Shown here: positions 14,187 to 18,574 of the stretch, in pieces
Numbering within the stretch: the stretch's first letter is position 1
How the letters are laid out: each line of letters opens with the position of its first letter
From: Halobacteriovorax sp. GB3
Lineage (GTDB): Bacteria; Bdellovibrionota; Bacteriovoracia; Bacteriovoracales; Bacteriovoracaceae
Reading direction: 5' to 3'
Assembly: GCF_028649655.1 (NCBI RefSeq)
Contig: NZ_JAQSLN010000003.1
Span: forward strand, 62,001-126,000
Length of the DNA stretch: 64,000 nt
Notes under the pieces: generated by a model
The model's database searches: none
What the model was told of the DNA's origin: nothing
What the model saw: only the letters and a program-made list of their open reading frames with translations
Translations under genes and position numbers: made by a program

Positions 14187-14894
14187 TTAAGAGATTTTTT
14201 TCATGGCCTCTAAGCTCTGGACGAGACTAAGGGGATTGTCTAGTGGTGTTATTTTATTATTGTGCACTGTGAGTGAAGTGTTTTTAGTTTTTCTCTCTTC
14301 TAAGTTATTAAGTGAATAGCTTAGATCTTCATTATAAGTAATGCTCTTGTCACATAACTCACTCCAGTAGTGGGCATCATGAGTCAGAATAAGAAAGTTT
14401 GTTTTATCTTTTTCATTCTTTTCGAGAATGGCCTTTTTAAAAAGAGCTTTTAAAAAAGGATCTGCATGTTCATCAATACATTCAACAATTACTAGTGGTG
14501 CTTCAGAGAGAAGCCCTTTTACCATAGAAGCAATGAGCAGTTCTTTAGAGGAGCATTCGCTCACTTTCTTTTGTACAGGCCCAATGGCGTGAAAGAGAGA
14601 TTTGAGAGCTGGCCTCGTCTCTAGTCTTACGGCCAGGTCTTCTAGCATAGTCTCATTTTTTTGATTTAGTACGTTATTATTTGTCTCCAGTGTAATTTGC
14701 GAGAGAAGATCCATATTTTGAATAAACGACTGTTGAGATCCGATATGAGCAAAGACAAAGTAGTTTTTAACTCTTAGAGATTTCAAAGCACGCATGGCCT
14801 CGTTTAGATATTGAGTTTCTCTCTTTTTAGGAACAAAGAGGACAATATCTTGGCTGGTCATAGTTTCAATTTTAAATTTGTGAGCGTAATTCAT
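14187..14894 (-). CDS. ABC-ATPase-like protein lacking the Walker A loop
   Basis: A 235-residue soluble protein. Its second half follows the order of an ABC ATPase: a signature-like segment SECSSKELLIASMVKGLLSE, a Walker-B-like strand APLVIVECIDEHADPFL, and a His-switch-like strand FLILTHDAHYWSEL followed by CDKSITY. The N-terminal half should hold GxxGxGKST, but the equivalent place reads HIGSQQSFIQN, so no P-loop Lys is present. The signature Gly-Gly is also missing. It is probably a non-hydrolysing paralogue or regulator. No permease is adjacent. The family placement is by eye. Confidence 0.5.
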   Translation of the reverse strand: MNYAHKFKIETMTSQDIVLFVPKKRETQYLNEAMRALKSLRVKNYFVFAHIGSQQSFIQNMDLLSQITLETNNNVLNQKNETMLEDLAVRLETRPALKSLFHAIGPVQKKVSECSSKELLIASMVKGLLSEAPLVIVECIDEHADPFLKALFKKAILEKNEKDKTNFLILTHDAHYWSELCDKSITYNEDLSYSLNNLEERKTKNTSLTVHNNKITPLDNPLSLVQSLEAMKKIS

Positions 14895-14965: not shown

Positions 14966-15046
14966 ATGTCGAGATATAATGGGATAAGGGCAAAACTAGG
15001 AGGTTGTTTTGGCCACTGTCATCATTGGAATGGATGGAAAAATTGA
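14966..15046 (+). other. Possible 26-codon leader ORF overlapping the MnmA-like start
   Basis: ATG at 14966 directly follows CAGGAGGTT and opens a 26-codon frame rich in Gly, Cys and His that ends at 15046, inside the next gene in another frame. The sequence AGGAGGTT occurs again at 14998 before the TTG start of that gene. Also at 14975-14980 there is a TATAAT, which if used as -10 would start the RNA downstream of this ATG, so the leader ORF may not be transcribed. Confidence 0.25.
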
Positions 15047-16220
15047 ATCGTTAGTTGCGGCCTATTTGTTAAAAAAACAAGGTCACAAATGTATTGGCGT
15101 TACTGTTTCGCTGCGTTCACGCAATGAAATTGAAAACGAAATCTTTGAAGAGTGGCTCCCTAGTGATTTAGATCTTATTAAATCTTATTGTGATCAACTT
15201 GAAATCCCTTACTATGCCACTGAAGGCTATGGGGAATTTCTCGACCAGGTGATTGACCCCCTGGTTGCTGCGAGATTGCAGGGGCGTCGCTATGATGCAA
15301 GGCCTGATTATAACAAGCTCATTGTTAGTAAATTAATGGAAAAAAAAGGCGCACTTAAAGCGGACTTCGTGGCCACAGGACATTTTGCTAAACTCTACAA
15401 AAACCAAATCACTGGCGAACATCATCTTCTAAGTTCTAATGACTTAAATAATGATGAAAGTTTTGGCGTCGCAACTTTACCAGATTCTTATTATGATCAT
15501 CTTCTCTTTCCTCTAAGTGATTTAAGACGTGAGGAGACTCAACGTATTTATGATTTGGTTGGTATTAACGTCGATAGAGATTACAAAGAACTTAAAAGAG
15601 CGCGTAGAGATTTTGATATCAAAGATAAAATTCTCGATCTGATTAAAGAGAGAGCTCCTCATACAATGATTAAAGAGGGTGTCGTTTACAGCCAGTATGA
15701 TGGGCGAACTCTTGGTGATCACGAATCTCATAGTGATTTCTATGTAGGACAGACGACGCGCTTGAATTTCAAAATGAGTCAACCGCTCGATAAGAATATG
15801 GTCGTTGTTCGCGTGGTTCCTTCTAATGGTTCTATTCTACTTGGTAGAGAAGATAAATTAAAACATAGTCACCTCTATATTTCTCATTTTATTTGTGAAG
15901 AAGCTCTCGATCGCTCTGTGCCTATCAATTGTTATTATAAAATTTCAAATTCAAAAGAGATTGAAAGTTGCTGTTTGTATTTTAAAAATAATGACTTTGC
16001 ACTCGTTGATTTAAAGGGTGAAAAGGAGGGGGTACTCTCTCCTGGTACTCGTGTGGCCTTTTATAATCGCAAAGGAGTCGGGGCTAAGGTTATTGGCTCA
16101 GGTGTCGTTAAGAGTTATGGATACTACGAAAATGCTGAATATAGACAGCTTCCTTTTACTAAGGAAGAAGAAGATGTTTTGAAAAAGCCACTCATCGATA
16201 TTTTTCAAATGAGGTTATAA
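15009..16220 (+). CDS. MnmA-like tRNA thiolase paralogue without catalytic residues
   Basis: A 403-residue protein that follows the MnmA fold throughout but lacks the chemistry. The PP-loop SGGVDS is replaced by DGKIES (residues 9-14, in VIIGMDGKIESLVAAY). The catalytic-Cys segment NPDILCN of MnmA is replaced by ARPDYNK (near residue 100), and there is no equivalent of STGICFIG. Fold landmarks such as ADFVATGHFAKL and the C-terminal SPGTRVAFY region remain. TTG at 15009 is taken as start because it gives the MnmA N-terminus and AGGAGG precedes it. Genuine mnmA lies 1.2 kb downstream. Its stop overlaps the next ATG (TAATG). Confidence 0.7.
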   Translation: MATVIIGMDGKIESLVAAYLLKKQGHKCIGVTVSLRSRNEIENEIFEEWLPSDLDLIKSYCDQLEIPYYATEGYGEFLDQVIDPLVAARLQGRRYDARPDYNKLIVSKLMEKKGALKADFVATGHFAKLYKNQITGEHHLLSSNDLNNDESFGVATLPDSYYDHLLFPLSDLRREETQRIYDLVGINVDRDYKELKRARRDFDIKDKILDLIKERAPHTMIKEGVVYSQYDGRTLGDHESHSDFYVGQTTRLNFKMSQPLDKNMVVVRVVPSNGSILLGREDKLKHSHLYISHFICEEALDRSVPINCYYKISNSKEIESCCLYFKNNDFALVDLKGEKEGVLSPGTRVAFYNRKGVGAKVIGSGVVKSYGYYENAEYRQLPFTKEEEDVLKKPLIDIFQMRL

Positions 16221-17362
16221 TGAAGTTTTGTTTTAGTGCAATTATTTTACTTTTTACGATGCAAACACTTGCTGTGAATCTCAAAAAGAGAGAGAAAAAC
16301 CCAACATCTGTTTATCGCGTAAAAAGTATTGTTACTAAAGTAAAAGAAGATGATCTCATTAAAACACTTCGCGATTTTATTAAAAATAACAGACCTTCTC
16401 GTATGGTGGGAACGGCCAGTCATGAAAAAGTCGCTTCATGGCTAGTAGAAGAAATTAAAAGAAAAGATCCAAACTCTAAGGGCCTTGTCATAGTCGATGA
16501 ATTTGAACCAGACTTGGAAAGAGCGAAAAAGAGTTATCTTCAAGAGTTTCAAAATGAAATCGTTGGCAAGTTTCAACCAGGTGATAAGATTTATCAACGA
16601 TGGGATTCTTTCACGAAGAATATGATCAAGAGGTTGGATTCATTTAAGGGAATAAAGGGAAAGAACGTTATTTGGGAAAAGAAAGGTTCTAAGTATCCAA
16701 ATGAAGTTCTTCTTCTTGGTGCCCATTATGACACAGTGATATTTGATAAGAAGAATATGGTTGTTAATAATAAAGGACGACAACCAGGTGCAGATAATAA
16801 TGGCACAGGAGTTTCAGCTCTTTTACAAATGATTGAACTTCTCTCGCAAGTTGAGATTCAAAAAACAATTCGTATTGTCTTCTTTGATTTTCAGGAATTC
16901 GATTTTCTAGGGGCCAGGGCCTATTTAAAAAAATACGAAACACCTCTTAAAGAAGAAAATTTCAATGGTATGGTCAATGTTCTCATGCTCGGCCACGATA
17001 CTAAAAATGAAGATAAAGAAAAAAAGTATGGAAATTTCAAGGCCTATGGAAGAAAGGGGATGGGTGGGCCCTCTTCGCACGATAAAGCTCTTTTTGATAT
17101 GCTAAACGTTGCTGGAAAGAAAATGTCTAGTCACATCGACTTTGAATACGTTGGCAATAATTTCAATACAGGTGATCATCTTCCTTTTTGGGAAAATGGG
17201 TATCCAGCCGTGACTTTCACCCAAAACTGGGAGAGTGATTACAATAGTAAAAATCATCATACATCAAATGATTTTGTTGAAACGATTAATTTCAAAAGCT
17301 TCTATCATTCTTTTCTCTATCTCAGTGGTTCTGTCATTTCTTGGGCCATGGAGCTTAAGTAA
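16220..17362 (+). CDS. Exported M28-family peptidase-like protein
   Basis: A 380-residue protein with a signal peptide (MKFCFSAIILLFTMQTLA) and the M28 di-zinc aminopeptidase fold. Ligand-like motifs are LGAHYDTV (His), PGADNNGTG (bridging Asp), a Glu in FFDFQEFDFLGARAY, and the last His in HHTSNDFVETINF. In active M28 enzymes the third motif reads EE, the first Glu being the general base; here that residue is Gln. The usual Asp ligand after the next strand also seems altered (NVLMLGHD). It may be a glutaminyl-cyclase-like relative or a binding protein. It is coupled to the MnmA-like gene by a one-base overlap. Confidence 0.75.
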   Translation: MKFCFSAIILLFTMQTLAVNLKKREKNPTSVYRVKSIVTKVKEDDLIKTLRDFIKNNRPSRMVGTASHEKVASWLVEEIKRKDPNSKGLVIVDEFEPDLERAKKSYLQEFQNEIVGKFQPGDKIYQRWDSFTKNMIKRLDSFKGIKGKNVIWEKKGSKYPNEVLLLGAHYDTVIFDKKNMVVNNKGRQPGADNNGTGVSALLQMIELLSQVEIQKTIRIVFFDFQEFDFLGARAYLKKYETPLKEENFNGMVNVLMLGHDTKNEDKEKKYGNFKAYGRKGMGGPSSHDKALFDMLNVAGKKMSSHIDFEYVGNNFNTGDHLPFWENGYPAVTFTQNWESDYNSKNHHTSNDFVETINFKSFYHSFLYLSGSVISWAMELK

Positions 17363-17425: not shown

Positions 17426-18574
17426 ATGGCGAGAATACACGATCAAAGAAAAAACGAAGAAATTACTGTCATTGTTGGAATGTCTGGGGGGGTTGATTCC
17501 TCGGCCAGTGCTGCTGTTTTAAAAGAGCAGGGCTACAATGTGATTGGAATGTTTATGAAAAACTGGGAAGAAAAAGATGAGTTTGGCGTTTGCCAATCGT
17601 CTAAAGAATTCGCAGACGTCGTTAAAGTGTGCGAGAAGCTCGATATTCCCTATTATTCCATCGATTTTGTAAAAGAGTATCGCGATAATGTCTTCAAGCA
17701 CTTTGTTGAAGAATACAAAGCGGGAATGACACCAAATCCCGATATTCTGTGTAACCGTGAAATCAAGTTTAAGGTCTTTTTAGAGAAGGCCATTGAGCTT
17801 GGCGCTGATTACTTAGCAACGGGACACTATTGTCAAAACCTCTTTCTCGATGGTGAAAACCGCCTAGTGAAAGGGAATGATGATAATAAAGATCAGACCT
17901 ACTTTCTCTATACAATGATGAAATCTAAACTTGATAAGGTTCTCTTTCCCATTGGTCATATTCCAAAGCCAGAAGTTAGAGAAATTGCTAAAAAGTATGA
18001 TCTTATCACTCATGATAAAAAAGATAGCACTGGGATTTGTTTCATTGGTGAGAGAAATTTTAAAAACTTCCTCTCTCAATATGTTCAAATGAAGGAAGGG
18101 AACTTTGAAACACTCGCTGGTGAGGTTGTAGGCAAGCACACAGGTTCTGTCTACTATACAATTGGCCAAAGAAAAGGGCTAGGCCTTGGTGGTCCTGGTG
18201 AGCCTTGGTATGTTGTTGACAAGGATATGGAGCGCAATGTGGTTATCGTTGAAAGAGGTGATCAACATCCGGCCCTTTATTGTGACTATCTCTATGCTGA
18301 TGAAATCTCTCTCGTTAGTGAGAGCTTCAATTTAGAGCTTCCTTATCGCTGTAAAGCTAAGGTTCGCTATCGCCAAAAAGACCAAGATTGTGTGATTACT
18401 GAATTTGATGGCAATAAAGTTAAAGTTGAATTTGACGTACCTCAAAGAGGGGTGGCCATCAGACAGAGTATTGTTTTCTACCAGACAATTGAAGGCCAAG
18501 AGGTCTGTCTGGGTGGGGCAATGATTGAATCAAAAGGGCCTAGCTACTTTGAGATGAACAAAGAACTACCATAG
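17426..18574 (+). CDS. mnmA: tRNA-specific 2-thiouridylase MnmA
   Basis: Makes the 2-thio group of s2U34 in tRNAs for Lys, Glu and Gln, using ATP and a persulfide relay. The 382-residue protein has the PP-loop SGGVDS (residues 20-25), catalytic C109 in NPDILCNREIKF, second catalytic C205 in STGICFIGER, the tRNA-binding QTYFLY segment, and the C-terminal barrel beginning HTGSVYYTIGQRKGLG. All residues missing from the upstream paralogue are present here. The ATG at 17426 is set by the family N-terminus; upstream ribosome-binding signal is weak and lies in a hairpin. It overlaps the convergent small Cys-rich gene by nine bases. Confidence 0.95.
   Translation: MARIHDQRKNEEITVIVGMSGGVDSSASAAVLKEQGYNVIGMFMKNWEEKDEFGVCQSSKEFADVVKVCEKLDIPYYSIDFVKEYRDNVFKHFVEEYKAGMTPNPDILCNREIKFKVFLEKAIELGADYLATGHYCQNLFLDGENRLVKGNDDNKDQTYFLYTMMKSKLDKVLFPIGHIPKPEVREIAKKYDLITHDKKDSTGICFIGERNFKNFLSQYVQMKEGNFETLAGEVVGKHTGSVYYTIGQRKGLGLGGPGEPWYVVDKDMERNVVIVERGDQHPALYCDYLYADEISLVSESFNLELPYRCKAKVRYRQKDQDCVITEFDGNKVKVEFDVPQRGVAIRQSIVFYQTIEGQEVCLGGAMIESKGPSYFEMNKELP

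Follow-up and report, generated by a model that had tools for sequence, protein, structure and literature searches.

The locus raises the question of why a predatory bacterium of the Bacteriovorax group keeps, beside a working mnmA, a second full-length MnmA-like protein that has lost its active site. The window analyzed here is a stretch of 64,000 nucleotides from Halobacteriovorax sp. GB3 (contig NZ_JAQSLN010000003.1, positions 62,001 to 126,000). Within it, the pseudo-MnmA paralogue occupies positions 15009–16220 on the forward strand, encodes 403 residues, and begins with a TTG start codon served by the Shine-Dalgarno sequence AGGAGG (14998–15003, forward strand). The protein contained a Pfam HUP domain (E 2e-24) and matched the NCBIfam MnmA model NF001138 over residues 4–367 (E 1.6e-39), scoring 135.8 bits against an equivalog cut-off of 284. 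Its AlphaFold model was confident (pLDDT 93.4, pTM 0.89), and the best solved structural matches were the MnmA structures 2hma, 2der and 2det (Z 33.0–34.8, 334–352 residues; 2hma: Z 34.8 over 351 residues), with the next-best structural family reaching a Z of only 13.8. The profile and structure comparisons proposed with the original prediction therefore both returned MnmA, and its claim of a fold conserved over the full length without the chemistry was borne out.

We examined the active site by alignment to MnmA. The PP-loop SGGVDS reads DGKIES (residues 9–14; 15033–15050, forward strand), with Gly10 and Ser14 kept. RPDY (15300–15311, forward strand) stands at the site of the DxxC of D-type or the CxxC of C-type MnmA, so that Arg98 and Tyr101 fall on the positions of E. 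coli Asp99 and Cys102, and Asp201 (15609–15611, forward strand) replaces the second catalytic Cys, which is Cys199 in E. coli. The SGGxDS loop and the catalytic Cys pair with its D/CxxC motif are thus both absent, as had been predicted, and the window protein has a complete MnmA fold without thiolase chemistry. The stronger wording, that all catalytic residues had been stripped, went too far: Gly10, Ser14, Thr123-Gly124-His125, Asp145, Asp149 and His238 remain in the window protein, and the same residues are present in most orthologues. The pocket is therefore disarmed rather than erased.

The loss of cysteines did not extend to the whole family. Among 60 orthologues, the CxxC + C triad was complete in 42, absent in 16 and partial in 2, and the residues retained by the 42 are those that serve as ligands in [4Fe-4S] C-type MnmA. 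Total Cys loss, which the original prediction had noted in the window protein, is judged from the alignment to be only one end state, the one to which the window's clade belongs. On a quick tree built with the trait columns left out, the paralogue clade showed five or more changes of the triad and the relics of other families showed two; these counts depend on that tree, and related sequences do not represent independent cases. The PP-loop consensus [ST]GGxDS survived in 10 of 47 paralogues, its Ser and second Gly varying freely. Several MnmA-universal residues were lost in nearly all paralogues of both states, namely Thr95-Pro96 (TPNP), Lys149, Arg179, Gly245 (the GQRKGLG glycine) and Arg311, while the equivalents of Cys102, Cys199 and Gln151 were kept in 100% of the Cys-positive paralogues. 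From this pattern, the thiolation-specific residues and the PP-loop seem to have been lost first and the cysteines last. The same losses (TPNP, K149, R179, R311 and the GQRKGLG glycine) make tRNA binding doubtful, and the net charge of the paralogues gave no hint of changed tRNA binding; of the new roles suggested earlier, a non-catalytic one remains the best reading.

To place the paralogue among MnmA types, we compared it with other families of the phylum. C-type MnmA carries CxxC + C and a [4Fe-4S] cluster (Shigi 2020, as cited in PMC11784392). In the Bdellovibrio-like and other families that were sampled from the phylum, there is a single canonical C-type MnmA. In three families (f8, f12 and f15), a D-type MnmA is accompanied by a C-type-like copy that lies on a different contig, unlinked to mnmA; these second copies range from intact through partly eroded to Cys-less. 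A Cys-less copy from f12 was still predicted to adopt the MnmA fold (pLDDT 88.7; Z 30.8 to 2der). The C-type profile outscored the D-type profile for 47/47 paralogues and 16/16 relics, also with all Cys masked (mean +58 and +56 bits), although it covers more phyla than the D-type profile and may favour C-type for any distant sequence. The two-residue His-Pro insertion of D-type MnmA was absent from all 47 paralogues and all relics, and the C-type Leu occupied one diagnostic site in 47/47 paralogues. In a quick tree, the paralogues fell on the side of the C-types, with no support for the branch joining them to the nearest ones. An AU test did not reject a tree constrained to place the paralogues together with D-type (p 0.77; the constrained tree scored higher), and long branches are involved.

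These comparisons suggest that an ancestral C-type MnmA was displaced by a D-type MnmA and that the paralogue is likely its relic. The original prediction had called it an MnmA paralogue; profiles, indel and diagnostic residues point to a probable C-type relic and not to a duplicate of the adjoining mnmA, the tree alone not being decisive. A recent duplication of the adjoining mnmA is disfavoured by the profiles, the indel and the CxxC, with the AU test leaving some room for it. Like C-type MnmA, the paralogues have the fold, lack the two-residue insertion, and in most orthologues carry CxxC + C; unlike it, they have an eroded PP-loop, have lost TPNP and GQRKGLG, and bear a new C-terminal tail, and the window's clade has in addition lost every Cys. 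With D-type MnmA (that of E. coli and the adjoining one), the window protein shares the fold, and with the adjoining one also the operon, but it lacks the DxxC, the second Cys and the PP-loop and falls below the MnmA cut-off. The survey of Bdellovibrionota proposed earlier thus yielded both the linkage described below and relics at graded stages of erosion. One genome (G195; loci L126 and L127) holds an intact-looking C-type copy (SGGVDS, CVQC, EICF) together with an intact D-type MnmA, possibly a living intermediate of the replacement.

We then considered the genomic context. The true mnmA (17426–18574, forward strand) lies 1.2 kb downstream of the paralogue, as originally predicted, and is an intact D-type gene (DILC, GICF and SGGVDS; 447.6 bits). 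Between them is a gene for an M28-type protein (16220–17362, forward strand), whose start overlaps the paralogue stop by 1 base. In 57 of 57 fetched stretches containing the two genes, paralogue and mnmA were co-oriented with the paralogue first; these stretches span about 47 genera and include loci without M28, and the adjoining MnmAs were D-type (DxxC + C) without exception. The M28 gene was found between the two in 42 of the 57 stretches; it is missing at about a quarter of the loci, where the order of paralogue and mnmA is unchanged. The M28-type protein has a hydrophobic N-terminus and is probably exported. In the window, its catalytic Glu is replaced by Gln225 (codon 16892–16894) and its metal ligands are intact; among 44 such proteins (the window's and 43 neighbours), the Glu was replaced in 35 and all five metal ligands plus the Glu were present in only 5, with several ligands also gone in the stolpii-like clade. 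By its residues, this neighbour is mostly a pseudo-peptidase. The coupling to it, described earlier as unexpected, is less odd for a protein mostly dead as a peptidase and absent from about a quarter of loci. At one locus (L191 of G003, a 96% complete genome), the paralogue was present with no detectable D-type mnmA, which may be a loss or an assembly gap.

A TATAAT at 14975–14980 (forward strand), identified by comparison between genomes, is probably the -10 box of the operon formed by the paralogue, the M28 gene and mnmA. TATAAT occurred within 150 nt upstream of 45 of 59 paralogues (shuffled expectation 10.9), against 3 of 56 mnmA genes (shuffled expectation 5.9). In a promoter scan, sigma-70 sites were not enriched in this region, and the case for the box rests on the between-genome comparison. 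Because the enrichment is before the paralogue and not before mnmA, the promoter of the operon is most likely located ahead of the paralogue, making it the promoter-proximal gene. A candidate leader peptide, encoded by a short frame that lies upstream, carries a Shine-Dalgarno sequence of its own and runs over the gene start, was rejected, as it overlaps the TATAAT and is absent in BSW11_IV.

The paralogues also share a C-terminal tail that the original prediction did not describe and that is novel to their clade. In the window, it extends past the MnmA beta-barrel (16113–16217, forward strand), is acidic, ends in LIDIFQMRL, and coincides with a drop in model confidence (pLDDT 61 and 42 in the last blocks). 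The median length after the beta-barrel was 35 residues in paralogues vs 20 in MnmA, and the Asp/Glu fraction was 0.27 vs 0.13 in neighbouring genes. A terminal Phe was found in 44/60 paralogues compared with 1/55 MnmA and 10/301 of the remaining genes in these stretches (Fisher p 3e-33, relatedness ignored). Position -3 is mostly Phe or Leu. Most tips read FxF, with DF in one clade; the window protein ends in DIFQMRL and its relatives in DIYKFKF or DIYKFKL. The tail persisted in paralogues after Cys loss and was absent from the f8 and f12 relics examined. Docking peptides are commonly built as a flexible, acidic linker capped by a hydrophobic tip, and the SSB tip is likewise a terminal aromatic on a flexible linker; the tail is likely such a docking peptide. 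Eukaryotic cytosolic Fe-S clients end in the tripeptide [ILM]-[DES]-[FW] (PMC10623007). The paralogue tail resembles it in having a terminal aromatic tip on a flexible linker and differs in being mostly FxF or DF and in outliving the cysteines. We know of no targeting complex of this kind in bacteria. The conserved tip offers a short handle toward finding the partner of the paralogue, and a search for tail-tip twins in the organism's own genome gave one further DNA match to the degenerate pattern.

To assess maintenance of the gene, we surveyed the GTDB family of the organism, which includes Bacteriovorax sp. BSW11_IV and DB6_IX, Halobacteriovorax and Bacteriovorax stolpii. On genome contigs, a single-protein search gave no match and a profile search gave matches; 110 of 115 genomes matched the MnmA-family search, and at least 97 held two MnmA-family loci. 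The window and BSW11_IV paralogues were 58% identical, with pN 0.29 and pS 0.74 (near saturation), and omega was about 0.08–0.20 in pairs with unsaturated dS. The paralogue is under purifying selection. Slow pseudogene decay might be read from its evolving faster than mnmA, from a frame split in two in G023 (L072), from a stop codon within the frame, close to its end, in G026 (L054), either of which may be real or an assembly error, and from apparent loss in genus g32, where four sampled genomes (G032, G064, G075 and G083) had a D-type mnmA and no detectable paralogue. Against it stand full-length frames in nearly all family genomes, pN well below pS, and the conserved promoter and tail. A pseudogene is disfavoured by pN/pS, and we regard ongoing decay as highly improbable. 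General decay, which the original prediction had named as refuting it, is not seen; decay is limited to the margin, in G023, G026 and genus g32.

Tentatively, and short of an even chance, we favour a decommissioned C-type MnmA kept as a non-catalytic partner or adaptor of D-type MnmA, acting through its tail. An ancestral C-type U34 thiolase ([4Fe-4S], CxxC + C) would have been replaced in thiolation by the D-type enzyme and retained as a non-catalytic protein, which in the window's family would have become the promoter-proximal gene of the mnmA operon. The relic would have lost its PP-loop and MnmA-universal residues first, keeping the three Cys in most lineages and losing them later in the window's clade, and would have gained the disordered acidic tail with its hydrophobic tip, through which it could form a heteromer with D-type MnmA or bridge to a sulfur donor. 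The fold, the loss of chemistry, the linkage, the purifying selection, the tail and the repeated losses are computed results, whereas we infer that MnmA or its sulfur donor serves as the partner and that thiolation is affected. The Tus relay is the sulfur route known from E. coli. The TusA and DsrC/TusE families had no match in the organism's own genome, the one genome searched, where MnmA is D-type; an E. coli-type relay is thus apparently absent and an adaptor conceivable. The role would resemble that of the cluster-less Ctu2/Ncs2, which serves Ctu1/Ncs6: Ctu2, a paralogue and partner of the thiolase Ctu1, is required for thiolation although it has no cluster Cys (PMC10067955). The window protein is likewise a U34 thiolase paralogue without cluster Cys; Ncs2/Ctu2 belongs to another PP-loop subclass and arose independently, and a heteromer here is proposed by analogy. 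Against a partner role speak genus g32, with mnmA and no detectable paralogue, and the relics of f8, f12 and f15, which are unlinked to mnmA and, where examined, tailless; the linkage may reflect shared promoter use only.

The tail might instead dock to a protein outside the MnmA pathway, the operon merely ensuring shared expression with growth or translation genes. Such neofunctionalisation would fit the loss of MnmA-universal residues in nearly all paralogues, the tail as the clade's shared novelty, the unlinked relics, and an exported M28 neighbour not expected to meet cytosolic MnmA; given mnmA linkage at 57/57 loci, including those without M28, over about 47 genera, we consider it rather unlikely. 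An Fe-S or sulfur carrier, whose CxxC + C would bind a cluster or persulfide and hand sulfur to D-type MnmA in place of Tus, would explain why the C102, C199 and Q151 equivalents are invariant in Cys-positive paralogues when the PP-loop consensus is kept in only 10 of 47, and would agree with the missing TusA/TusE matches. That search covered one genome only, and the window protein has none of the three Cys, so the function would have been lost secondarily in its clade; we hold this to be improbable. Still less probable is an enzyme using ATP for another, non-thiolating chemistry in the same pocket: the conserved Gly10, Ser14, TGH, Asp145, Asp149 and His238 would suit it, but the Ser and the second Gly of the PP-loop are free to vary, and a search for alternative active-site residues, raised by the original prediction, revealed no acid, Cys or His cluster newly conserved in the Cys-less clade.

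Under the partner or adaptor reading, a broader and more doubtful proposal is heteromeric U34 thiolation in bacteria, with a dead C-type MnmA binding D-type MnmA or bridging it to the sulfur donor via a C-terminal docking peptide, and with catalytic death occurring several times in parallel within one phylum. If true, it would be a bacterial counterpart of Ctu1/Ctu2; no publication on this turned up in the literature collection searched. Within one phylum, the copies cover all stages of active-site loss, starting with an intact C-type copy next to a D-type one and ending with copies that have no Cys, so that one can read directly how a D-type enzyme replaced an Fe-S-dependent tRNA thiolase and what the displaced enzyme is retained for. 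The C-type/D-type question is a live one, as the [4Fe-4S] requirement of MnmA is disputed (PMC11784392).

Upstream of the paralogue lies a divergent conserved gene (14187–14894, reverse strand) for a degenerate ABC-ATPase-like protein without a Walker A motif (hhalign probability 96.5), found at 44 of 61 loci and ending in a conserved KKAA/KKAS-like tip. Matches to this family in genomes without the locus were weak only and were taken as ordinary ABC ATPases. Three degenerate enzymes, the ABC-like protein, the pseudo-MnmA and the M28-type protein, thus adjoin one another in the window.
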